DNA from: Clostridia bacterium | GTDB taxonomy: Bacteria; Bacillota; Clostridia; Christensenellales; UBA3700 | Assembly: GCA_029060025.1 (NCBI GenBank) | Contig: JAIDUV010000027.1 | Span: 36,085-100,084 of the forward strand | Length of the DNA stretch: 64,000 nt | Reading direction: 5' to 3' | In this document: positions 10,914 to 42,815 of the stretch, in pieces | Position numbering within the stretch: position 1 is the stretch's first letter | Layout of the letters: the number at the start of each line of letters is the position of its first letter | Notes under the pieces: model-generated | The model's input: only the letters and a program-made list of their open reading frames with translations | Told to the model about the DNA's origin: nothing | Databases searched by the model: none | Program-made: the position numbers and the translations under genes

Positions 10914-10946
10914 AAAACAGTACAACCAAGGTTAAAAGGAGTGAAT

Positions 10947-13900
10947 ATGAGAAATAAAATCAACGTGATAGTCTGCATAATGATTGTTGCGTGCGTGGCA
11001 ATATTCGCAGTTGCGTGCGCGCCGAAGGATGCGGACGGATTGATAAAACTCGCTACGCCAAGCAATTTGGCGCTCAACGGAAGTGTGTTGAGTTGGGACG
11101 AAGTAGAAAATGCCAAAGAGTATTTTATTTCCGTTGACGGCGTGGAGAATGAGCAGAGCGTGAATACTACGACTTGCGATTTGAGCGCAATGGTCACAGG
11201 GTATGGCAATTTTACAATTGCAGTGAGAGCGTACGGTGACGGAAAAAAATACGGCACCAGTGACAAGAGCGCGGCGATCGTGTACCACAAAGGCAATGCT
11301 TTGGACACGCCTGTCGTGACTATTACTGACAAGGTTGCGTCTTGGAATGCTGTCGATAAGGCTGTAGATTATTCCGTCAGAGTCACTGGCGAAAAGGGCG
11401 CGGTGCTTGACGAAGTCACAAGTGACGCGTTGTCTTATAATTTTGCAGACAAAAAGACTTCTGACAGTGAGGAAGAAAAAGAACTTTACGGTGACTACGG
11501 CGCTTATAGGATAAGCGTAATAGCAAATCCTGCGTCTGACAATATTGAGTATTCGTCTTCTTTGGCAGGTACGGCAACTTATTATAATTCGACGGTGTTG
11601 TCAGTGCCTAAATTTACAGATATGACGGGCACGACTATAAGATGGGGAGCAGTCTCCAATGCCACCAACTATACCTTGAGAAAGACTTATGAGGACGGCA
11701 CTTATGAAGACGCGGTCGTCACTGGTACGAGTTATGCTTATCGTACAAAATTCAATCTTGAGAAGGTTGGCGAATATACTTTCACGATTAGAGCAAACGG
11801 TGACAATCAAGTGTATTACACAAGTGATTTCAGCGAAAAGGATAGCGAATACGTCGTCAACAAACTTGCGTCCGTAGACGCTAAGGATATGTCGTTGACT
11901 TACGATCAAAACGGCAAGGCAACACTTACTTGGAAGATATCTGCAGATTCGCTTGCTACTGAATTTACGCTCAACTTGAGCGCATTGTTGCCCGACGGAA
12001 GCGTCAAGTTGGAAAGCAGTATTTTGCAAAAGACCATTTCCAACAAGATTGTTTTCGTAGTGGCAGACGTATACGATTTTTATAAGTATGATACGGACGG
12101 AGAAAGCCTTGTAAAGGAAGAGAAGACCATACTCGTATATAATATGAACGGATACGCTAAGGTGCGTTATGACGGCAAAGATTACTTCCTCAAGGATAAA
12201 GAGGACAAGGACGTAATGTGGAAGAATTATGCTCCCAGCGCAAGCGTAGATATAATTTGCGATATGAGCAATCCCGACGAAATAAAGTTTGTCAATGAGC
12301 GCAAGGAGTACACTAATCCGGAAGACGGCGCAATTTTGAGCCAAAAGACTGGAGAAACCCAAGACGTATTAGGCACAGACGGAAAACAACTTTTCTATTA
12401 TGAAAAAGTCGACGGCGAGACGGAGATTGAAGTAAAACAGGACGTTGAGTACGATGCCGACGGCGTAACCGTCAAGTATCATACTTTTGAGATTATGCTC
12501 GACGATATATTCATCAAGAAGAACAGCGAAGAGGGCGAAGACCCATACGAATATTTGATAAGTGACAATGCTTATTACGGCTTGCTTTACGACGTGTCGA
12601 TATCTGCGGACAATACTTCCAAGAATTTTGTGGTAAGTCAAAGCGTGTCGACAGACGGACAGTATATGAGTTATAAGATACCGAAAAAGGAAAACGGTAA
12701 ATTCGTTGTGACCAACACCGGTGAGTACGCTTACATTATACTCAATTCATTTATCAATCCTAATAATACTGACGAGTTTTCTATTGAAGACAATATCAAC
12801 TTCAACGGATATGAGATAGCGCAAATTGAGACATTCAGTGGCGTTATCAACGGCAATAAGCATACAGTTTCGGGTATCGTCATTGGCAACAAAGTGATGA
12901 CGCAAAACGGCGTAATGAAGAACGACAGTTCAGGTGATCTTGAGTATTCTATGTTTGTCAATATTGACGGCAACGGAAATTCAAACAAAGGTATTATCCA
13001 GAATATATTCTACGTTGGTATGAGTTTTGTAGGGTATGACAAAGAAGACCTTGGCGAGAGTGTGACGTCTATAAAAGTTGCGCCTATTGCTATCAACAAT
13101 AAGGGCACTATCCGCGATGCGCTTGTGCAAAGTGACTCCATCAAGGCAGAGGGCGCTCAAGTTGCAGGTATGGTAATCAACAACTACGGATATATCAACA
13201 CGGCTTCTGTATACGCTCAACTTGAGGGTATGACCGTAGGCGGTGTAATGATCAACAACGCAGAAAATACTCTTGTGGCATTCGTAGGCTTCTATGGCAA
13301 GGTTACGGCTACGCTTTCGGATATTCTGACTGACGGTGTGACTAGCGTAGGCGGAGCAGGATTTGCAGTCAACAACGACGGCTCTATTGCAGACAGTTTT
13401 TCGATTGGAGACGTAAGCGTCACGGCGGCAGGACTTGACAGCGTGTACGCAGGCGGATTTGTTGCTGTCAACAACGGTAATATCGGACAGTCGTACAGCG
13501 GAGAATTTACTCTCAACAATCCTGACGTCAACACCGTGGTAGCCAACGGTGACAATGCGTATGCAGGCGGTTTCGTAGGACTAAATACTGGTGAAATCAG
13601 ATCAAGTTATTCAACCAACAAGGCTACGGCAAGTATGTACTCCGGCGGATTTGTAGGCTTCAACGACGCGACCGTAATAAGTTGTTATTCCACGGGCGGT
13701 ACGACGCGTACCGGTGAGAACAAAGGCTCGTTCGTAGGTAAAAACAATGGAAATATTGACAAGAGCGTATGTTATTCTACAGACAGTTGGGCAGAAGACA
13801 GCGTCGTAGAAGTGTTGAAATCAAGCGAAAAACTTGGTGATATTATCAATATACTTTACGGAGAGGACGAGGCTGTAATGGTGCTTTTGCGAGAGCAAGG

Positions 13901-14150
13901 ATACCGCAACCCGCTTATCAAAGGACTTATCTATTTGGTAAGGAATAGCAACGATACTAGCGAGGATAGAAATATTGTAACAATGCGTCCTTCGCAGACC
14001 GTTGACACGCAAGGCGTAGCGTTCAATCGCGAAGTCAAAGACGTGGAATCTACCTTGCACGGTGATAATACTAAGAAAGGTAACAGAATAGTTATCGAAC
14101 TCAGTTGCGACAACCTTCCGTCAAGATACGTTTACGGATACGTCAATTAA
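10947..14150 (+). CDS. Large surface lipoprotein with FN3-like modules and GLUG-like repeats
   Basis: Signal peptide and lipobox (AIFAVAC); repeated GGFVAVNNGNIGQSYS / GGFVGLNTGEIRSSYS / GGFVGFNDATVISCYS units. Confidence 0.8.
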   Translation: MRNKINVIVCIMIVACVAIFAVACAPKDADGLIKLATPSNLALNGSVLSWDEVENAKEYFISVDGVENEQSVNTTTCDLSAMVTGYGNFTIAVRAYGDGKKYGTSDKSAAIVYHKGNALDTPVVTITDKVASWNAVDKAVDYSVRVTGEKGAVLDEVTSDALSYNFADKKTSDSEEEKELYGDYGAYRISVIANPASDNIEYSSSLAGTATYYNSTVLSVPKFTDMTGTTIRWGAVSNATNYTLRKTYEDGTYEDAVVTGTSYAYRTKFNLEKVGEYTFTIRANGDNQVYYTSDFSEKDSEYVVNKLASVDAKDMSLTYDQNGKATLTWKISADSLATEFTLNLSALLPDGSVKLESSILQKTISNKIVFVVADVYDFYKYDTDGESLVKEEKTILVYNMNGYAKVRYDGKDYFLKDKEDKDVMWKNYAPSASVDIICDMSNPDEIKFVNERKEYTNPEDGAILSQKTGETQDVLGTDGKQLFYYEKVDGETEIEVKQDVEYDADGVTVKYHTFEIMLDDIFIKKNSEEGEDPYEYLISDNAYYGLLYDVSISADNTSKNFVVSQSVSTDGQYMSYKIPKKENGKFVVTNTGEYAYIILNSFINPNNTDEFSIEDNINFNGYEIAQIETFSGVINGNKHTVSGIVIGNKVMTQNGVMKNDSSGDLEYSMFVNIDGNGNSNKGIIQNIFYVGMSFVGYDKEDLGESVTSIKVAPIAINNKGTIRDALVQSDSIKAEGAQVAGMVINNYGYINTASVYAQLEGMTVGGVMINNAENTLVAFVGFYGKVTATLSDILTDGVTSVGGAGFAVNNDGSIADSFSIGDVSVTAAGLDSVYAGGFVAVNNGNIGQSYSGEFTLNNPDVNTVVANGDNAYAGGFVGLNTGEIRSSYSTNKATASMYSGGFVGFNDATVISCYSTGGTTRTGENKGSFVGKNNGNIDKSVCYSTDSWAEDSVVEVLKSSEKLGDIINILYGEDEAVMVLLREQGYRNPLIKGLIYLVRNSNDTSEDRNIVTMRPSQTVDTQGVAFNREVKDVESTLHGDNTKKGNRIVIELSCDNLPSRYVYGYVN

Positions 14151-32284: not shown

Positions 32285-33121
32285 ATGGATTGGCAAAGAC
32301 TAAACGGCGAAATATTATCCAAAGTAAGTAGGTATTTGACCTTTGCAGAGCGCGCTATTGATACTGCGCAGGTGGACGAAGTTGCCTCCTGCGGAGTAAG
32401 TAGACACAGGGCGGTAGAATTGTTGTTTGCAAATTATCTTGATTTGGACGGGTTGGCTCAAAAATATTATTTGCCGTATATGCTCAAGGGGCTTGACAAG
32501 AGGGAGTATCATAGCAACGAGTATTATTCAAATATATCATTTGATTACGCGTCAAATGGGGAGTGGGAACTCAAGAAAGATTTTTATGCGCCGTATGAAA
32601 TATTTGTGCAAGATGATTTTGTGTATGATTTTCAAAAGGTATTACCTCAACTTGGTTATTTTGAAGAAGTATTTCAATATCCTGCAGTATATCAGGACGG
32701 AAGACTTTGGATGAGCGTAACTCCCAATGAAATCAACACTATGAAAGAACCTATATCTAAAGCGCGCGGTAAGACGCTTACGTTTGGATTGGGACTAGGA
32801 TATTTTGCATATATGTGCGCAATAAAAGAGAACGTGACGAGCGTCACTATCGTGGAAAAGGATAAGAGCGTCATTCAACTTTTTGAGCAAAATATCTTAC
32901 CTCAGTTTGTTTGCAAAGATAAGATAAGAATTATCTGTGACGACGCATTTGACTTTATTGAGAAAATGCGAGATGGCGAGTACGATTACGCTTTTGTCGA
33001 TATTTATCACGACGCAGGAGATGGCGCGGAAACTTATAAAAGATTTAAGCAGAAGCGAAGCAAATTCAGCGCTACCAAGTTTGACTTTTGGATAGAAAAA
33101 ACAATCAAGTATTATATCTAA
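32285..33121 (+). CDS. SAM-dependent methyltransferase / spermidine-synthase-like fold protein
   Basis: LTFGLGLGYFAYMCAIKENVTSVTIVEKDKSVIQLF, IICDDAFDFIEKMRDGEYDYAFVDIYHDAGDG. Confidence 0.75.
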   Translation: MDWQRLNGEILSKVSRYLTFAERAIDTAQVDEVASCGVSRHRAVELLFANYLDLDGLAQKYYLPYMLKGLDKREYHSNEYYSNISFDYASNGEWELKKDFYAPYEIFVQDDFVYDFQKVLPQLGYFEEVFQYPAVYQDGRLWMSVTPNEINTMKEPISKARGKTLTFGLGLGYFAYMCAIKENVTSVTIVEKDKSVIQLFEQNILPQFVCKDKIRIICDDAFDFIEKMRDGEYDYAFVDIYHDAGDGAETYKRFKQKRSKFSATKFDFWIEKTIKYYI

Positions 33122-33130
33122 ATCTTATAT

Positions 33131-34366
33131 CTATTTGTTGGGCAAAAAATTCAATGCGCTCAACGGCAATTCGACTATAAAGCGGGTGTATTCTCCCAAT
33201 TGACTTTCGCATTTAATTTTGCCTTTGAGCGAATCCACGATGGATTTTGCAATACTCAAACCAAGACCGAAAGAATTGCCGGTGTCTTTATGAGAAGAAT
33301 CAACCTTGTAAAATCTGTCGAATATATGATCGATTTTTTCTTGCGGTATTCCTTCGCCTGTATTTGTCAAAGTGATTACAGCGTAGCGTCTCGTCTTTTG
33401 CAAATGCAATGTCATTTTACCTTTTTCGGGAGTATATTTGATTGCGTTGTCAAGCAATATTCCTACGAGTTTTTCTATCTCGGCAGTGCTTGCCGAAACT
33501 TTGATATTCTCGTCGGCTGTGTAGTCAAGAGTAATTGATTTTTCATAACATATTGCTTCAAATGACAGTGTCATACCTTCGACTATGTCGTTGATTATCA
33601 AATCTTCTCGCTGGGTATTTATTTTGTTGGATTCATATTTTGTCAACTCCAGCATATCTAAAATCAAAGATTGCATTCTTCCAAGTTGATAGCCGGCAGA
33701 TTCAAGCCATTTTCTGTTGTCGTCAACGGTGGAAGAAGGATCGCTTTGAATAAGTTCTAGATTGGTTCTGACGACTGTCAAAGGAGTTTTAAGTTCGTGC
33801 GATGCGTTGGCAATCAATTCTTGTTGACGTAAGAAAGACTGCTTTACAGGCTCAATAGCGTGCTTTGCAAAGTAGTAGTAAAATAAGAATATAATAAGCA
33901 TACCGACGATACAAATACAAGTCAGCGTGATGCTCATAATATTAAGATAGTTGTATGATTTTGTATAATCTATTATCGTGTATTTTGTTGCATTCTTACC
34001 GCTTTCTTTGACGGTAGTAGCGATGAATTTATATCTTCTTCCGCTTTCGGTATTAAATGAGCCGCTCTCGACCTTTTTTCCTGTCACGTTTTTGACGACT
34101 GCCTGTATTTCTTCGCGCGTAAAGTAGTCGGGGGAGTAATACGTGGTCGGCTCGTGATTTTCCACTTCGACGACGTAGACGTAGTTGTCGCTTTGGAAGT
34201 AAGGTCCCGCGGCGGCTTTTAAAAGATCGTTTTCGATATCTGTCAAAGTCTGAACTCTCGATATGAGAAATACGAGAGAGCAGGCAAGTATTATAAACGC
34301 CCAGCCTATTGCCAATGGGACGTAAAAGAATTTTCGTTGAAGTTTTCTAAATACTTTGTCGTTCAT
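33131..34366 (-). CDS. Sensor histidine kinase
   Basis: Two TM segments; NASHELKTPLTVVRTNLELI, LVGILLDNAIKYTPEKG, SFGLGLSIAKSIVDSLKGKI. Confidence 0.95.
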   Translation of the reverse strand: MNDKVFRKLQRKFFYVPLAIGWAFIILACSLVFLISRVQTLTDIENDLLKAAAGPYFQSDNYVYVVEVENHEPTTYYSPDYFTREEIQAVVKNVTGKKVESGSFNTESGRRYKFIATTVKESGKNATKYTIIDYTKSYNYLNIMSITLTCICIVGMLIIFLFYYYFAKHAIEPVKQSFLRQQELIANASHELKTPLTVVRTNLELIQSDPSSTVDDNRKWLESAGYQLGRMQSLILDMLELTKYESNKINTQREDLIINDIVEGMTLSFEAICYEKSITLDYTADENIKVSASTAEIEKLVGILLDNAIKYTPEKGKMTLHLQKTRRYAVITLTNTGEGIPQEKIDHIFDRFYKVDSSHKDTGNSFGLGLSIAKSIVDSLKGKIKCESQLGEYTRFIVELPLSALNFLPNK

Positions 34367-35241
34367 CAATTTTTTGCGGCAAGTTGATAGCCTACGCCCC
34401 TTATTGAATTGATTGTAAAGGCAGCGTTGACGTAATTGAGTTTCTTCCGCAAGAAAGATATAAATACCTCAAGCGAGTTGGATTCAAAGTCGTTGTCAAA
34501 TCCCCAAACTTTGTTGATAAGGGGCTCTTTTTCGGCAACGTGACGAGGTCTTTCAAAAAAATATCTCATTATATCAAACTCTTTTTGAGAGAGTTTGACG
34601 CTCTTATTTTCGTTTTTGTTTATAAGTTGAAGCGTAGATAGGCTCAAAGATATAAATACCTCAAGCGAGTTGGATTCAAAGTCGTTGTCAAATCCCCAAA
34701 CTTTGTTGATAAGGGGCTCTTTTTCGGCAACGTGACGAGGTCTTTCAAAAAAATATCTCATTATATCAAACTCTTTTTGAGAGAGTTTGACGCTCTTATT
34801 TTCGTTTTTGTTTATAAGTTGAAGCGTAGATAGGCTCAAAGACACGTTTTCATAGGTAATGAGGTTGTCGGGCGTAGCGTCAGTCTTTCTTCTCAAAAGC
34901 GCTCTAATACGCGCCAACAGTTCTGCAGTGGAGAAGGGCTTTGGCAAATAGTCGTCGGCGCCTAGGTCGAGACCTTTGACTTTGTTGTATTCTTGCGAGA
35001 GCGCCGTCAGCATAATTACAGGCGTGGTAATTCTTTTTTCGCGTACTTGACTCAACACTTCAAAGCCGCTCTTCTTGGGCATCATCACGTCAAGTATTAT
35101 CAAATCAAAAATATTCGACAGCGCGAGTTGAAGTCCCGCTTCGCCGTCGTTTGCCACTTGCACCTCATATTTTTCCTTTTGCAAAACAGTACTCAATGCT
35201 TCGCAAAGGCTCATTGAATCTTCTACCAACAATATTCGCAT
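34366..35241 (-). CDS. OmpR-family response regulator carrying an internal 64-aa tandem duplication
   Basis: Receiver domain MRILLVEDSMSL...LIILDVMMPKKSG...LGADDYLPKPFS; winged-helix domain partly duplicated. Confidence 0.93.
   Translation of the reverse strand: MRILLVEDSMSLCEALSTVLQKEKYEVQVANDGEAGLQLALSNIFDLIILDVMMPKKSGFEVLSQVREKRITTPVIMLTALSQEYNKVKGLDLGADDYLPKPFSTAELLARIRALLRRKTDATPDNLITYENVSLSLSTLQLINKNENKSVKLSQKEFDIMRYFFERPRHVAEKEPLINKVWGFDNDFESNSLEVFISLSLSTLQLINKNENKSVKLSQKEFDIMRYFFERPRHVAEKEPLINKVWGFDNDFESNSLEVFISFLRKKLNYVNAAFTINSIRGVGYQLAAKN
34454..34837. repeat. Perfect 2 x 192-bp tandem direct repeat (34454-34645 and 34646-34837)
   Basis: Exact DNA repeat; AAAGA at 34454-34458, 34646-34650 and 34838-34842 flanks the units. 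Confidence 0.97.
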
Positions 35242-35335
35242 AATTTCCTCCTATCCTATACAACCCAAAAACCGAGTATCTTTATTATATAATATTATAT
35301 TAAGATTTTCAATACTTTTAATGAAAACTATACAA

Positions 35336-35366
35336 AAAAACGGAAGTTGTTGACACTTCCGTTTTA
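35336..35366 (-). terminator. Terminator after the ApgM fusion gene
   Basis: AAAACGGAAGT gtcaaca ACTTCCGTTTTTTT on minus strand. Confidence 0.85.
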
Positions 35367-35386
35367 AATATATTTTTAGTTGACGC

Positions 35387-38300
35387 TTAAGCGGCATTTT
35401 GCATTGAAGCAGAACCAATGCCTGACGTAAAACCGCTGTTGTTGACGTTGCCGCTGTTGATAGTGCCGTCATTTCCCAAGTCTGACGGAGATTTTGTCAG
35501 AGTGGCTTGACATTGCGAAGAGTCGGAATCTTTGTAATAGCCGTGTCCGATTGCTGTAATTATAATACGGTATCCGCCATTTTCTGCGATGCTGCTGTCA
35601 TACTCAATGCCATAGAGTTCCTTCAAGTCGTCAAAGTTGATGCTGTATCCTACGCTTCCTTCCGTCAGAATAGACGTTCTGCCTATTTCGATGATCTTGC
35701 TGTCGTTGATTTGAAGTTCTACAAGATATTCGTATCCATTTTGCACGCCTTGCCAACTTGCGTGAATTGCCGCTGATTTAGTCTCTTCGTTGCCGTCGTC
35801 TTCGCTTATCGTTGCGGTAATAGTATCTTCTTCGACAGCCGTGAGTTTTTGGGTCGTGGAGTGCGCAATCATTGAGATAGGCGAGTCTTTTATATTTGGA
35901 TTTTCAGTATTGATTGCCTTTACTCTCACAGAGTGATCGCCCACTTTGTTGACGTATTGCGTAATGTCCGCGTTGAACTTGTTGCCGTCTTCATTAAGAG
36001 TGAGATTGGTAATCTCTTTGTTGTCAATGAATATCTTGTATGCGTTTGCGTTCGGTACTTTGGTAAACTCAAAGAAAGTCTTGGTAGTCTCGTCTTCGGT
36101 CTTTGTATATACGCGAAGTCCGGTAGGCATATTAAGCGTGATTATATAGTCGTATTTTACTGATATAGAATCGCCGTTGACATACATTGTCGTAGATCCG
36201 ATTTCCTCAAAGTTCAAATCGTCGGAGTAGTTGCCTTCAGGAGTAACAGTGATTGTATAACTCTTGCCCGGTGTCGAAACGTATTGCGTTATATCAAATT
36301 CCGGATCGTCAGAGGTGTTCTTTTCCCAGCGCAGAACTACGTCGTTTTCAGCCACGCCGTCGCTTATCAAGAATTGGTACGACTTTGCATACTTCACTTT
36401 AGCGGCTTTGCAATATATTCTGTTTTCTCTCTCTTCGATAATTATATCTATTGGTTGAGCCAACTTTTCAACGTAGATTACGTTTTCGCAACCTGTCATA
36501 TTATGGGTAGCGTTGAGGTCTCTGAAGATTATCAAATTCTTGACGTTTTGATACGTCGGGCAGGTGTGACCTTCTTGCATTATGACTTGCTTACCGCCTA
36601 TGACGGTATTTGAGATATTGCCTGCGACAGTGGCGGTAGAGTCGCTGTCAAGTTGCAAAGTAGCAACGGTGCTATCGCTCTTAACCGTCAAGTTGCTGCC
36701 AATCAAAGAAATAGTATTTGAAATTTTTACTCCGCTTTCTACGATAGTATTGGGGCAGTTCAAGACGTTGATTTGGCTTGTAGACTTAGCGTCTATTATA
36801 TTGCCTGCAAATACTACTTTACTTGCGCTTATCTCTGCGTCGATTATGTTGGTTTCGCCGCCTTCAAAGTTGTAGATCGTAAATGATTTTGCCGTTACTC
36901 TCAAGGTTTCGCAAGATACGTTTGCCAAAAGTACGATGTCCAAGTTGGGAGCGTTTATTTCAATCGCGCCTGCTTTGAGGTTGGACTTTTTATGAGTGAC
37001 AAATTCTTTACCTTTTCTAGTACCAATATACAGCGTGCCTGATTTTTCTGACGTGATAGTAAGAGTTCCGGATACGCCCAACGTGTGTTTGTTGAGGTCA
37101 ATGCTATATATATTGTTGTCGTCAAAAGTCAAGTTGTCGCAAGAGATGTTGTTGTCAAGCACGTAGAAATATTTGTCAAGACCGCCTTGTTTGCTTGCGA
37201 CGAAATCGTCTGCGTTCTTGACGAAAATTCTCGGAGCGTGGAAGAATACTATAGGCAGTATTATTGCCAAGAGCACTCCCACGAGGCATACGCTTGCAAC
37301 TATGGCAATTATGCCTTTTTTGCCCAACTTTTTCTTTTGTCCGACAGGTTGGTCTTTCTTTTCTTTTTTATCGGATTTATCTTTTTTCTTTTTATCTTTG
37401 CTATCTTCGCTGTCTTCTTTTTTGTCGGAAGAACCGTCTTGAGTTACTTCTTCTGCTTTGTCTGCTTGGTCAGCGTCACTTGATTGCAAAATAATCTCTC
37501 CGTGCAAAAACTCTTCCATAAGTTCTTCACCTGTGGAGAAGAAGAGTCCTGCTTCTTTTGCGTTTTCTTCGCTATATGGCGCGCCTACTGCGGGGCTTTG
37601 CTCTTCGCCTGCTTTGCGAGCGTAGATTACAAACGGCACAGGATCGCTTGTGTGAGTCTTAAGCGAGAGCGGAGTAGGATGGTCTGGGGCAATGAGTATC
37701 TTGTAGTCCTCATTCATAAGGTCAAGTTGTTCTTTTACGTACTTGACTACTATGCTGTCTATAAGTTCAATAGATTTGACCTTGTTGTCAGCGTCTCCTT
37801 GGTGTCCGCACTCGTCGGGAGCCTCCATATGGATATATACGTAGTCGTATCCCTCTTTAAGAGCCTCTATGGCAGCCTCGGCTTTTCCCTTGAAGTTGGT
37901 CTTGTACGTACCGGTTGCGCCGTCTACGTTGATGACTTTCATTTGCGCGCCTGTTCCGATACCCTTTATCAAGTCTACTGCAGATATGACTGCGCCCTTG
38001 ATGCCGTACTTTTCTTCAAATGGAGTGAGTTGAGGGCGTGTGCCTTCGCCCCAAAGCCAAATGCTATTGGCAGGCTTTAGACCTTGAGCAATACGCTTTT
38101 GGTTTACAGGATGATCTTTTAGCAAATTGTAAGAATCCGTCATTATATCCAAAAAGATATCACCGTACTCGCCCTTGGGAAGATACTGAGTGATTTTCTT
38201 GTCGGAAATATCGTGCGGAGGAGTGAAGTCTGTGCCAGTCTCGGCATTGTGCGCAACGAGACAGTGGCGGTAACTTACGCCAGTGTAGAAATCAATATAT

Positions 38301-38716
38301 TCGTCTCCGAGATTTTGTTGGAGATATTCTATGAGTTGTCTTGCTTCCTCGGTAGAAATTTCGCCTGCGGAATAATCAACCATAGTCTTGTCGGCGTAGT
38401 TCTCTTCGTCGGATAGCGTGACGAGATTGCATCTAATAGCCACGTCGGTGTCCTTGAGGTCAATGCCGATCGAGAGCGCTTCGAGTGGGGAGCGCCCCGT
38501 ATAGTACTTGTCGGGAGCGTAACCCATCATAGAGAGGTTTGCCACGTCGCTACCCGGCTTCATACCGTCGGGTACTGTCTTGACAAGACCCAATTTGCCT
38601 CTTTTACACAAGTCGTCTATATTTGGCTTGTCTGCTACTTCAAGAGGTGTGCGACCTCCGAGAGCGTTTGAAGGGTAATCGGCCCAGCCGTCGCCCAAAA
38701 TTACCACATACTTCAT
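35387..38716 (-). CDS. apgM: Archaeal-type cofactor-independent phosphoglycerate mutase domain fused to linker, one TM helix and ~600-aa predicted extracellular region
   Basis: MKYVVILGDGWADYPSNALGGRTPLEVADKPNIDDL, GSDVANLSMMGYAP, TGRSPLEA, HMEAPDECGHQGD, IAPDHPTP; then Lys/Asp/Glu linker and IIAIVASVCLVGVLLAIILPIVFF; SD AGGTG before ATG 38716. Confidence 0.92.
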   Translation of the reverse strand: MKYVVILGDGWADYPSNALGGRTPLEVADKPNIDDLCKRGKLGLVKTVPDGMKPGSDVANLSMMGYAPDKYYTGRSPLEALSIGIDLKDTDVAIRCNLVTLSDEENYADKTMVDYSAGEISTEEARQLIEYLQQNLGDEYIDFYTGVSYRHCLVAHNAETGTDFTPPHDISDKKITQYLPKGEYGDIFLDIMTDSYNLLKDHPVNQKRIAQGLKPANSIWLWGEGTRPQLTPFEEKYGIKGAVISAVDLIKGIGTGAQMKVINVDGATGTYKTNFKGKAEAAIEALKEGYDYVYIHMEAPDECGHQGDADNKVKSIELIDSIVVKYVKEQLDLMNEDYKILIAPDHPTPLSLKTHTSDPVPFVIYARKAGEEQSPAVGAPYSEENAKEAGLFFSTGEELMEEFLHGEIILQSSDADQADKAEEVTQDGSSDKKEDSEDSKDKKKKDKSDKKEKKDQPVGQKKKLGKKGIIAIVASVCLVGVLLAIILPIVFFHAPRIFVKNADDFVASKQGGLDKYFYVLDNNISCDNLTFDDNNIYSIDLNKHTLGVSGTLTITSEKSGTLYIGTRKGKEFVTHKKSNLKAGAIEINAPNLDIVLLANVSCETLRVTAKSFTIYNFEGGETNIIDAEISASKVVFAGNIIDAKSTSQINVLNCPNTIVESGVKISNTISLIGSNLTVKSDSTVATLQLDSDSTATVAGNISNTVIGGKQVIMQEGHTCPTYQNVKNLIIFRDLNATHNMTGCENVIYVEKLAQPIDIIIEERENRIYCKAAKVKYAKSYQFLISDGVAENDVVLRWEKNTSDDPEFDITQYVSTPGKSYTITVTPEGNYSDDLNFEEIGSTTMYVNGDSISVKYDYIITLNMPTGLRVYTKTEDETTKTFFEFTKVPNANAYKIFIDNKEITNLTLNEDGNKFNADITQYVNKVGDHSVRVKAINTENPNIKDSPISMIAHSTTQKLTAVEEDTITATISEDDGNEETKSAAIHASWQGVQNGYEYLVELQINDSKIIEIGRTSILTEGSVGYSINFDDLKELYGIEYDSSIAENGGYRIIITAIGHGYYKDSDSSQCQATLTKSPSDLGNDGTINSGNVNNSGFTSGIGSASMQNAA

Positions 38717-38845
38717 ATTTTCACCTATATAAGAATGCGTAACGCTACGCATAATTTATTCACAGTTTATTATATTATATATAATATCCAATGTCAATTG
38801 TTTTATGACTAAGATTATTTAAAGTAACGGGGCGCGCTTTTTATA

Positions 38846-38880
38846 AAGATTAGACCTCTCGACTGCGCTCGAGGTGTGAT
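38846..38880. repeat. Copy of short intergenic repeat (CTCGACTGCGCTCGAG core)
   Basis: Similar to segments at 3025-3052, 43070-43113, 46343-46383, 59903-59972. Confidence 0.45.
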
Positions 38881-38981
38881 TGAAATTTATCACTTGATGT
38901 GACTTTTATATATTCATAATTAGTGTTACGTTTAAAATCTGTTTCACTTCCTAGTAATAAATTTGACGCAAAATAAAATTA

Positions 38982-39010
38982 AAGACGGCTCATTTAAGAG
39001 CCGTCTTAGT
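38982..39010 (-). terminator. Terminator of purF
   Basis: AAGACGGCTC ttaaat GAGCCGTCTT then T-rich tract on minus strand. Confidence 0.75.
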
Positions 39011-39013
39011 ATA

Positions 39014-40420
39014 TTATCCAAGGATGTTTTTGTCGTCTTTTTCACAAGGCACTTTGCAAGGATATTTGCCGGTAAAGCAACCTTTGCAGAATGTGACTTT
39101 TGAATCGGGAGCAATCTTGTCGACAGTCTTTACGTCGAGGAATGCAAGCGAGTCTGCGCCAATCTTTTGTCTCAACTCTTCCATAGTATAGTTGTTGCAA
39201 GCAAGATCCTTTCTCGACGGAATATCAGTACCGAAGAAGCAGGGGTAAATAAATGGTGGAGAAGATATTCTTACGTGCACTTCTTTCGCGCCCGACCTCT
39301 TGAGAAGTTTGATAATATTTGCCAAAGTAGTGCCTCTGACGATGGAGTCGTCGACCATAACAAGTCTTTTGCCTTCGACGTTGCTCTTCAAAGTATTGAG
39401 TTTGAGCGCAACGCTGCGTTCTCTCATTGCTTGCGTAGGTTGAATAAAAGTTCTGCCTATATATCTGTTTTTGATAAGACCCACGCCGTAAGGAATACCG
39501 CTTTCGTGCGAATAGCCTATTGCTGCAGGAAGACCGCTGTCGGGTACGCCTATTACGAGATCTGCGTCGGCAGGAGCGATTTTTGCAAGCATTTTGCCAG
39601 CGTTCATTCTTGCTTCGTTGACGCCTTGACCGTCGATTACGCTGTCGGGTCTGGCGGTGTAGATATGCTCAAATATGCAAAGTCCGCCGCTGTGACCGCA
39701 ATATTTCTCATTGGACTCTATGCCGTCTTCGGTGACGATTACTATTTCGCCCGGACGAACGTCTCTTTCAAAGGTTGCGCCTATCGTCTCAAACGCGCAA
39801 CTTTCGCTTGCGAATATTACGTTGTCCTGCAGTTTTCCCATACACAGAGGACGTATTCCGTATTTATCTCTTACGGCAATGAGTTTTCTTGGGCTCATTA
39901 TGAGAAGAGAGAATGCTCCTTGCAGCATAGGGAATACCTTTTCCACAGCCTCTTCGATGCTCTTTGATTTGAGTCTTTGAATGGCAATCAAATAGGATAT
40001 AACTTCGCTATCGCTCGTAGTGTGGAAGATTGCGCCTTTAGCCTCAAGTTTGTCTCTCAATTCTTTTGCGTTGGTTATATTTCCGTTATGCGAAACGGTG
40101 AGGTTGCCTTTTGCGTACTTTACGCTTATAGGTTGAGCGTTTTCCGGAGTATTGTTGCCCGTAGTTGAGTATCTCACGTGTCCTATAGCAATTTCGCCTT
40201 GCAATTTTGCAAGAATAGAATCGTTGAAAACTTCGCTTACGAGACCCATATTTTTGACAAGGGTGATTTCTCTGTCGTTATTGACGGCAATACCTGCCGC
40301 CTCTTGACCTCTGTGTTGCAGCGCGAACAGTCCAAAGTAGACTTGTTGCGCAATGTTGCCAAGACGAGATTTATCGTATATACCGAATACGCCGCACTCA
40401 TCCTTGATATTTTCTGACAT
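39014..40420 (-). CDS. purF: Amidophosphoribosyltransferase
   Basis: CGVFGIYDKS, GLFALQHRGQEAAGIAV, GHVRYSTTGNN, VMVDDSIVRGTT, SPPFIYPCFFGTDIPSRKDLAC. Confidence 0.97.
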   Translation of the reverse strand: MSENIKDECGVFGIYDKSRLGNIAQQVYFGLFALQHRGQEAAGIAVNNDREITLVKNMGLVSEVFNDSILAKLQGEIAIGHVRYSTTGNNTPENAQPISVKYAKGNLTVSHNGNITNAKELRDKLEAKGAIFHTTSDSEVISYLIAIQRLKSKSIEEAVEKVFPMLQGAFSLLIMSPRKLIAVRDKYGIRPLCMGKLQDNVIFASESCAFETIGATFERDVRPGEIVIVTEDGIESNEKYCGHSGGLCIFEHIYTARPDSVIDGQGVNEARMNAGKMLAKIAPADADLVIGVPDSGLPAAIGYSHESGIPYGVGLIKNRYIGRTFIQPTQAMRERSVALKLNTLKSNVEGKRLVMVDDSIVRGTTLANIIKLLKRSGAKEVHVRISSPPFIYPCFFGTDIPSRKDLACNNYTMEELRQKIGADSLAFLDVKTVDKIAPDSKVTFCKGCFTGKYPCKVPCEKDDKNILG

Positions 40421-40533
40421 ATTGTACCTACCTTTTTTGATTTATTTCAAAATCAATTTTATTATAGCAAATTTCGCTTGCATAATCAAATACTTGATAT
40501 AAAAAATTCTTGATTTTTTCAACAAATTTTGGG

Positions 40534-40569
40534 AATATTTTCGCGCGCACGCGTATACGCGAAAATATT
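40534..40569. repeat. Perfect 12-bp-arm inverted repeat upstream of purF
   Basis: AATATTTTCGCG cgcacgcgtata CGCGAAAATATT. Confidence 0.8.
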
Positions 40570-40730
40570 ATAGATATTTATTATCAATATTCTTATCTTT
40601 GAGAGTGGAGAGGTTGCGGCGCTGTAAAAGACGCGTGTCTATTGCGCTTTTACGTGTTTGATTATGCAACAAGGACGAAGCCTTGCGGTCTTCGTCCCTG
40701 TTCTAATGTACAACCTTTATATCGTATTTA

Positions 40731-42815
40731 TCAGTCCTTGACTGAGAAGAGAATTGCTCCGTAAGTTGGGAACGGCCAATACTTGTCGGCGGTATTGACT
40801 TCCATCTCGTCTGCCGCGGCGCGCAACTTGTCCATTGCTGTAATTACGTCCGTGCGGTAGAACATTGCCTTTTTTTCGATGTCTGCGATAGCCTCCGCCT
40901 TGTGAACTTTTGTTGACAGTTCTTCGAGATACTTATACGCGTCTGCCGAGAGTTTTGTCAACTTCTTTGCGGTAGCCGTCTGCGCAGTTGCTTCAAATCC
41001 CAATTCTTTTGTTGCTAAGGCGGTCTTTGCAAGTTCTTTTATGTATGTAGTTACAGCGGGCAAAATCTGCTTGTTTGCCATATCTATCATTGTCAAAGCC
41101 TCGATGTTGACGACTTTTGCATAGTTCTCAAGCAAGATGTCCGTTCTGGATTCTACTTCCAAAGCAGAGAATATGCCGTGCTTTTCAAAGAGGGCTATAT
41201 TCTTTGCGCTCTTGAAGTAGGGGATTGCTTCCGGCGTAGATTGCAAGTTGAGAAGTCCTCTCTTTTTTGCCTCTACCACCCATTCGTCGGAATAGCCGTT
41301 GCCATTGAATATTATTTTCTTGTGAGCAATGAAAGTCTTCTTGACAAGGTCTTTGACTGCCGCCATAAAGTCGCTTGCGCCTTCAAGTTCGTCAGCGAAT
41401 TGGTCGAGGGATTCTGCGACTATAGTATTGAGTATAATATTAGGTCCGGCAATAGAGAAGGTCGAGCCCAACATTCTGAATTCAAATTTGTTGCCTGTGA
41501 ACGCAAATGGGGAAGTACGGTTTCTGTCGGTGGTGTCCTTTGTGAACTTGGGCAGAGAACTTACGCCGATTTCGTATTCGCATTTTGCTCTTTTGCTGTA
41601 CGTTCTGTCTTCGGCAATTGCCGTGAGTATGCCGTCGAGTTCTTCGCCGAGGAACATTGATACTATAGCAGGAGGCGCTTCGTTGGCTCCAAGTCTGTGA
41701 TCGTTGCCTGCGCTTGCTACGCTTACTCTCAATAGGTCTTGATAATCGTCTACCGCCTTTATGACCGCAGCCAAGAAGAGTAAGAATTGCGCGTTGTCTT
41801 CCGGAGTGTCACCCGGCTCAAGCAGGTTTTCGCCCTTGTCCGTCGACATAGACCAGTTGTTGTGTTTGCCGCTTCCGTTGACGCCTTCAAAAGGCTTTTC
41901 GTGGAGCAGACATACCATTCCGTGACGGCTAGCAATCTTTTTCATCATCTCCATTGTCAACTGATTTGCGTCGGAAGACACGTTGGATTGCGAGAAGATA
42001 GGCGCAAGTTCGTGCTGAGCGGGCGCAACTTCGTTGTGCTTTGTCTTGGCTAGCACGCCGAGTTTCCAAAGTTCGGTGTCGAGGTCTGCCATATACTTGA
42101 CGACTCTTTGCTTGATAGTGCCGAAATAGTGGTCTTCAAGTTCTTGCCCCTTTGGAGCGGGTGCGCCGTAAAGCGTACGGCCGGTGTATATCAAGTCCTT
42201 TCTCTTTTCATATACGCTTTTGTCAATGAGGAAGTATTCTTGCTCTGGACCTACGGTCGTAATGACTCTGTTGACGTCTTTGCCGAAAAGTTTGAGTATT
42301 CTGCACGCCGTTTTGCTAAGCGCTTTCATTGACTTAAGAAGAGGAGTTTTTTTGTCGAGAACTTCTCCGGTATACGATACGAACGCCGTCGGTATGCAAA
42401 GCGTTCCGTCTTTGATAAACGCGTACGAAGTCGGGTCCCAAGCCGTATAGCCTCTTGCTTCAAAAGTGGCTCTGATACCGCCGTTGGGGAAAGAAGACGC
42501 GTCTGGCTCGCCCTTAATGAGTTCTTTTCCGCTGAATTCCATTATTACTTTGCCGTCGGCAGTGGGTTGAATAAAGGCGTCGTGCTTTTCCGCCGTGATA
42601 CCCGTCATCGGTTGAAACCAGTGGGTATAGTGTGTACAACCTTTTTCTATTGCCCAATCCTTCATTGCGTTGGCAATAACCGTCGCGCAAGTCAAAGAAA
42701 TAGGAGTGTCGTTTGCGATACAGGATTTGAGTTCCTTGTATGTGTACTTGGGAAGTCTTTCTTGCATTACCGTGTCGTTGAATACTAGACTGCCGAAGAG
42801 GTCTGACATTACCAT
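40731..42815 (-). CDS. glnA: Type III glutamine synthetase (GlnN-like)
   Basis: ~694 aa; [65 protein letters not shown]. Confidence 0.95.

Follow-up and report, generated by a model that had tools for sequence, protein, structure and literature searches.

The window, by which we mean the whole 64,000-nucleotide stretch of Clostridia DNA that was analysed, carries on its minus strand a fused gene (35387..38716) encoding a ThrB2-type enzyme of the ApgM fold, a linker, a transmembrane helix and an ectodomain. Its uninterrupted reading frame runs from 38752 to 35387 and comprises 1121 codons; residue numbers given here refer to this frame. An alignment of the upstream DNA with that of sister species points to codon 13, the ATG at 38716, as the likely start. 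The Shine-Dalgarno sequence AGGTGA ahead of this ATG (38721..38726, minus strand) is conserved in the sister species, and the 12 codons upstream of the ATG are absent in several of them. Hence, a length of 1109 residues is most likely for the protein, as a preliminary description of this DNA had assumed.

A promoter-like site, TTGACA-17-TATAAT (38769..38797, minus strand), agrees with the sigma-70 consensus at 12 of 12 positions and is largely conserved in the sister species. An intrinsic terminator with an 11-pair stem followed by a T run (35337..35365, minus strand) lies 3' of the stop codon. A terminator-like hairpin (38982..39007, minus strand) at the end of the upstream amidophosphoribosyltransferase gene sets that gene apart from the fused one. 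Since the fused gene has its own promoter-like site and terminator and the gene ahead of it is apparently terminated, it seems to be transcribed as a separate unit. The single frame with its own Shine-Dalgarno sequence and terminator, reported in the preliminary description, is therefore confirmed.

The 5' leader contains a palindrome, ATGCGTA...TACGCAT (38735-38752), between the promoter and the Shine-Dalgarno sequence. Its arms are largely kept in the four nearest species while the middle varies, and it is absent from the rest of the fused clade. An operator or an RNA hairpin is possible; an Rfam search of positions 33000-41000, palindrome included, gave no match to a riboswitch or any other family.

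Predicted membrane anchor and ectodomain

The enzyme domain (residues 13-417; 37502..38716, minus strand) is followed by a linker rich in Lys, Asp and Glu (residues 418-480; 37313..37501, minus strand) and by the core of a transmembrane helix (residues 481-499; 37256..37312, minus strand). This helix is the only hydrophobic one in the protein and is immediately preceded by KKKLGKKG. Its enzyme side is strongly positive, with 9 Lys/Arg in the 20 residues before it versus 3 after it, and the same bias toward the N-terminal side was found at every family locus measured (39/39). From this charge distribution, we infer that the C-terminal protein is bitopic with an N-in/C-out orientation, placing the enzyme inside and the ectodomain outside. 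The charged linker, the single helix and the topology expected from the positive-inside rule had all been recognized beforehand, and the family-wide bias supports the predicted orientation.

The ectodomain of about 620 residues (503-1121) is all-beta in a confident model predicted by AlphaFold2 on 34 homologues (pLDDT 87). Its first part is a predicted beta-solenoid of about 275 residues (36422..37246, minus strand; pLDDT 91.5 and pTM 0.86 when modelled alone). According to the AlphaFold2 model and Foldseek, approximately three FN3-like beta-sandwich domains follow (35507..36421, minus strand), and the chain ends in a Gly/Asn/Ser-rich tail (35390..35506, minus strand) that is predicted with low confidence and appears disordered. 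Structure prediction thus supports the beta-helix-like and FN3-like extracellular region proposed earlier. With the whole ectodomain, Foldseek returned FN3-containing chains down to an E value of 4e-9, all of them generic FN3 matches; Pfam fn3 was matched in only one of the 34 family members. No Pfam family names the C-terminal half of the window protein, and a profile search of PDB sequences gave no relative of solved structure. The solenoid alone yielded nothing in Foldseek at E ≤ 0.001, with adhesin and pectate-lyase solenoids below significance.

Among the weak fold matches of the ectodomain are the SRRP adhesins of L. reuteri, pectate lyases and tapirins, as well as the FN3 tandems of tenascin and the insulin receptor. 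The predicted order, a solenoid and then tandem FN3-like domains, is that of surface proteins in which a beta-solenoid is combined with an FN3 stalk. Unlike these, however, the window protein belongs to no significant sequence family, and it carries no signal peptide but a membrane helix within the chain. A beta-helical core is also found in bactofilins, some of which have a membrane helix nearby, but the solenoid of the window protein is predicted to be extracellular and is followed by FN3-like domains. Bactofilin membership was considered and rejected: PF04519 is absent from the window protein and weakly matched in one of 34 relatives (E 2.6e-4). Elsewhere in the window, a predicted lipoprotein of about 1069 residues with FN3-like repeats is encoded at 10941-14150. 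The ectodomain profile matches the FN3 region of this lipoprotein at E 1e-16, and sister genomes encode proteins like it.

Identity of the enzyme half

PF10143 and PF01676 are both matched by residues 13-417. The TIGR02535 profile ("proposed homoserine kinase") is matched over positions 1-396 of 397 with 539.9 bits, above the curated cut-off of 446.3. NF003242 (550 bits, cut-off 426) and the apgM subfamily profile TIGR00306 (540 bits, cut-off 320) are passed as well, and the equivalog of the archaeal phosphoglycerate mutase (PGM), NF003104, is failed with 320.3 bits against a cut-off of 489. The best relatives of solved structure are archaeal phosphoglycerate mutases (2zkt and 3kd8). Residues D21, S68, R87, D313, H317, D357, H358 and H367, aligned to these two structures, match the metal and nucleophile positions of archaeal cofactor-independent PGM (iPGM); their roles as metal ligands and nucleophilic serine we take from established knowledge of that enzyme. 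As judged from this alignment, in which all metal and nucleophile residues are kept, the active site is intact. Hence, of the archaeal-type, full-length, cofactor-independent PGM described at first, the full-length ApgM fold and the active site hold, whereas the identity as a PGM does not. The window enzyme shares its fold and its metal and nucleophile positions with archaeal ApgM (2zkt, 3kd8, 3idd) but differs in scoring below the PGM equivalog, in being dispensable for glycolysis and in its fused C-terminus.

That glycolysis has no need of the fused enzyme follows from two full GpmI genes (TIGR01307, 681 bits each) in the same genome; the preliminary description had suggested looking for a second, standalone PGM. 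Homoserine dehydrogenase (Hom, 219 bits) and threonine synthase (ThrC, 236 bits) are present too. Classical homoserine kinase (ThrB) is not found above the cut-off in this draft genome, which is 93% complete (best score 22 bits versus 168), nor in any of 22 sampled genomes of the window's family f1. TIGR02535 has a single match in the genome, so that the fused gene is its only ThrB2. Of 297 genomes from the order, 107 score above the cut-off for ThrB2 and 41 above that for ThrB; both occur together in 2 genomes, whereas 14.8 would be expected (Fisher p = 1e-6, a value that is too small because the genomes are related). This mutual avoidance, together with the lack of ThrB where Hom and ThrC are present, supports assignment to ThrB2 and argues against a PGM. 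The two genomes with both enzymes count against the ThrB2 assignment.

The TIGR02535 family has been proposed to replace homoserine kinase. A member from Bacteroides is required for growth without threonine; it did not, however, allow growth of an E. coli thrB mutant (PMC7311316), and for this reason homoserine kinase activity of the family is still only proposed. The protein goes by the name ThrB2 in PMC9026213. With ThrB2 proteins of the alkaline phosphatase-like ApgM fold, such as Bacteroides BT2402, the window enzyme shares the domain above cut-off, the active site and a context of Hom and ThrC without ThrB, but the known members are free proteins of about 400 residues, and in the window protein the enzyme is joined to a membrane helix with an ectodomain behind it. 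The enzyme half is thus most likely ThrB2 and serves threonine synthesis rather than sugar breakdown; it would phosphorylate homoserine to give O-phosphohomoserine. In consequence, an annotation as phosphoglycerate mutase is likely to be wrong and is corrected here to ThrB2, an enzyme class that is as yet only proposed.

The two GpmI genes lie at G000:C71:4863-6377 and G000:C19:81351-82865. Their scores are nearly equal within one draft genome of 2 Mb; the two may be true paralogues, or they may point to contamination or to a mixture of strains.

Separate genes in relatives and recurrence of the fusion

Sequence matching residues 420-1121 is present in all 47 genomes of family f1 (47/47), in one of them (G044) around the helix only. 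At the unfused loci of this family, a separate gene of about 645-730 codons lies directly 3' of a thrB2 gene of about 403 codons, with a gap of -4 to +4 bases, and this adjacency holds through most of the family. The separate protein begins with an acidic tail of about 90-170 residues, followed by a Lys-rich stretch, a single membrane helix and then the ectodomain. The C-terminal region is therefore no domain specific to the window protein; it corresponds to the neighbour gene of thrB2 in relatives. In unfused species of the window's genus g1, the end of thrB2, AAGGAGTAA, is followed by 4 nt and the ATG of the second gene. The last thrB2 codons, AAG GAG TAA, double as the Shine-Dalgarno sequence of that gene, and hence the two were probably translationally coupled before the fusion.

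In family f16 (genus g21) and in family f24, the C-terminal protein is found away from ThrB2. At the f16/g21 loci L112-L116 the membrane protein gene stands beside DusB/MazG-like genes or opposite methionine-synthase-like genes, all named by eye from the sequence, and thus has varying neighbours. In two f16/g21 genomes ThrC is fused to ThrB (L127:3504-5831 and L128:3264-5528) and the membrane protein is kept as a separate gene. There, likewise, two consecutive genes have become one, but the joined products are pathway enzymes at the same pathway step, whereas the window fusion joins an enzyme to a non-enzymatic envelope protein and not to the next enzyme of its pathway. A search of 246 genomes of the class gave, outside the order, partial matches only, in the FN3 region.

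Six further genomes of genus g1 (G026, G030, G039, G037, G038 and G029) share this fused frame, with lengths of 1090-1122 codons, and so does a seventh, G036, where the contig end truncates it. The eight fused species form a clade that is sister to nine unfused species. Further fused frames occur in two species of genus g3, in G012 (genus g4) and in genus g45 of the other family f16. A profile derived mostly from f1 proteins recognizes the C-terminal part of the g45 proteins with E values of 1e-58 or better. The relatives thus confirm a true single-gene fusion, as opposed to two genes split at 37240-37500. When the fused state is mapped onto an enzyme-domain tree, at least four changes are required; well supported branches force three of them, and some may be reversals. 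On this tree, the fused state has changed at least three or four times (g1, g3, G012, g45). In a phylum-wide sample, 88 other ThrB2-positive genomes contained no frame longer than 589 codons and hence no fusion. We found no description of such a fusion in the literature on TIGR02535 or membrane-anchored homoserine kinases among the open-licence papers of PMC, in line with the earlier statement that no described fusion of this type was known.

Inside the fused clade, dN/dS is 0.03-0.04 for the enzyme, 0.07-0.11 for the transmembrane helix and ectodomain, and 0.2-0.4 for the fast-evolving linker. By these ratios, both halves are under strong purifying selection. All eight fused genes of g1 keep the frame open through the junction, and they share no conserved internal start there that is preceded by a Shine-Dalgarno sequence. 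Consequently, both parts are used, and a single chain is their most likely product. A search of the eight genes for re-initiation at the former start showed no conservation, and this possibility was rejected.

Possible consequences of the proposed membrane tether

We consider it probable that, in some gut-type Clostridia, an enzyme of the threonine pathway has become anchored at the inner membrane face because its gene fused with a neighbour to which it was translationally coupled. The stop codon and the downstream start would have been lost and the frame slightly shifted, turning two neighbouring genes into one chain. Its N-terminal half, the only ThrB2 of the organism, would make O-phosphohomoserine for threonine synthesis, and its C-terminal half would be a single-pass N-in/C-out envelope protein with the beta-solenoid and the FN3-like stalk outside. 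A flexible, charged tether about 60 residues long would hold the enzyme at the cytoplasmic face, 1:1 with the ectodomain, and the enzyme presumably continues to act in the cytoplasm. The likeliest and simplest cause is a tolerated, low-cost joining, because the second protein already starts with a disordered cytoplasmic tail and a fused enzyme disturbs little.

Whatever the cause of the fusion, nature has here joined a biosynthetic enzyme of the cytoplasm to one and the same envelope protein several times, and close relatives without the fusion allow a direct comparison; the fused enzyme is a natural marker for the cytoplasmic N-terminus of this unnamed family of membrane proteins. If the tether is not selected, it shows that bacteria tolerate a membrane-tethered core enzyme. 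A selected role for the tether, which would connect amino-acid synthesis with the cell surface in an unusual way, seems rather unlikely to us. Such a role is conceivable given that the fusion arose several times in a single order, and this recurrence, seen beside its absence from the other ThrB2-positive genomes of the phylum sample, can also be read as selection for the tether.

An explanation with a modest chance of being correct is that the chain is cut, or translation re-initiated inside it, so that the enzyme is soluble and the membrane protein a chain of its own, like those of the relatives, which would make the fusion of little consequence. The long Lys/Glu/Asp-rich linker would be a plausible protease site. 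A possible internal start behind GGAG exists at the junction of the window gene (TTG422) and of one sister (GTG423), and from these some free C-terminal protein may also be made. The lack of a conserved junction start and the open frame in all eight g1 genes argue against this explanation.

Somewhat less probable is a sensor, in which the ectodomain binds a partner outside and changes how active the tethered enzyme is or how it clusters, or in which the state of the enzyme is passed outward; threonine synthesis would then be coupled to the envelope. Still more doubtful is its specific form, an extracellular beta-solenoid receptor that controls the synthesis of the threonine precursor as a one-component transmembrane metabolic switch responding to an outside ligand or to cell-wall contact. 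A sensor would fit the repeated fusion in two families of one order but in none of the 88 other genomes, the gene adjacency retained across most of the family, and a response regulator/histidine kinase pair that follows in fused and unfused g1 species alike. This kinase pair, however, has a promoter-like site of its own, and the linker, with its length, variability and weak constraint, does not resemble a signal-transmitting coil. Moreover, the C-terminal protein occurs without adjacent ThrB2 in f24 and in f16/g21, including the two genomes with a ThrC-ThrB fusion, and its work is thus independent of ThrB2.

A glycolytic PGM, or a phosphonate/phosphatase-like enzyme, tethered to the envelope as the preliminary description had proposed is very unlikely. 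It would agree with the fold, the metal and nucleophile residues of 2zkt and 3kd8 and the passed TIGR00306 cut-off, but the TIGR02535 and NF003104 scores, the two GpmI genes, the missing ThrB and the ThrB/ThrB2 avoidance leave it unsupported. A frameshift or misassembly joining two genes, for which the fragmented draft genome and a perfect 192-nt tandem duplication just downstream might speak, is excluded in practice by the same fused frame in seven further g1 genomes, by fused genes without junction stops there and in other genera, and by codon-level purifying selection in both halves.

This duplication of 192 nt (64 codons) lies at 34454-34837 in the DNA-binding domain of the response regulator gene (34366-35241). 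In the sister species the response regulator is a 227-aa gene product without it; the repeat in the window is either a fresh duplication or an assembly artefact.
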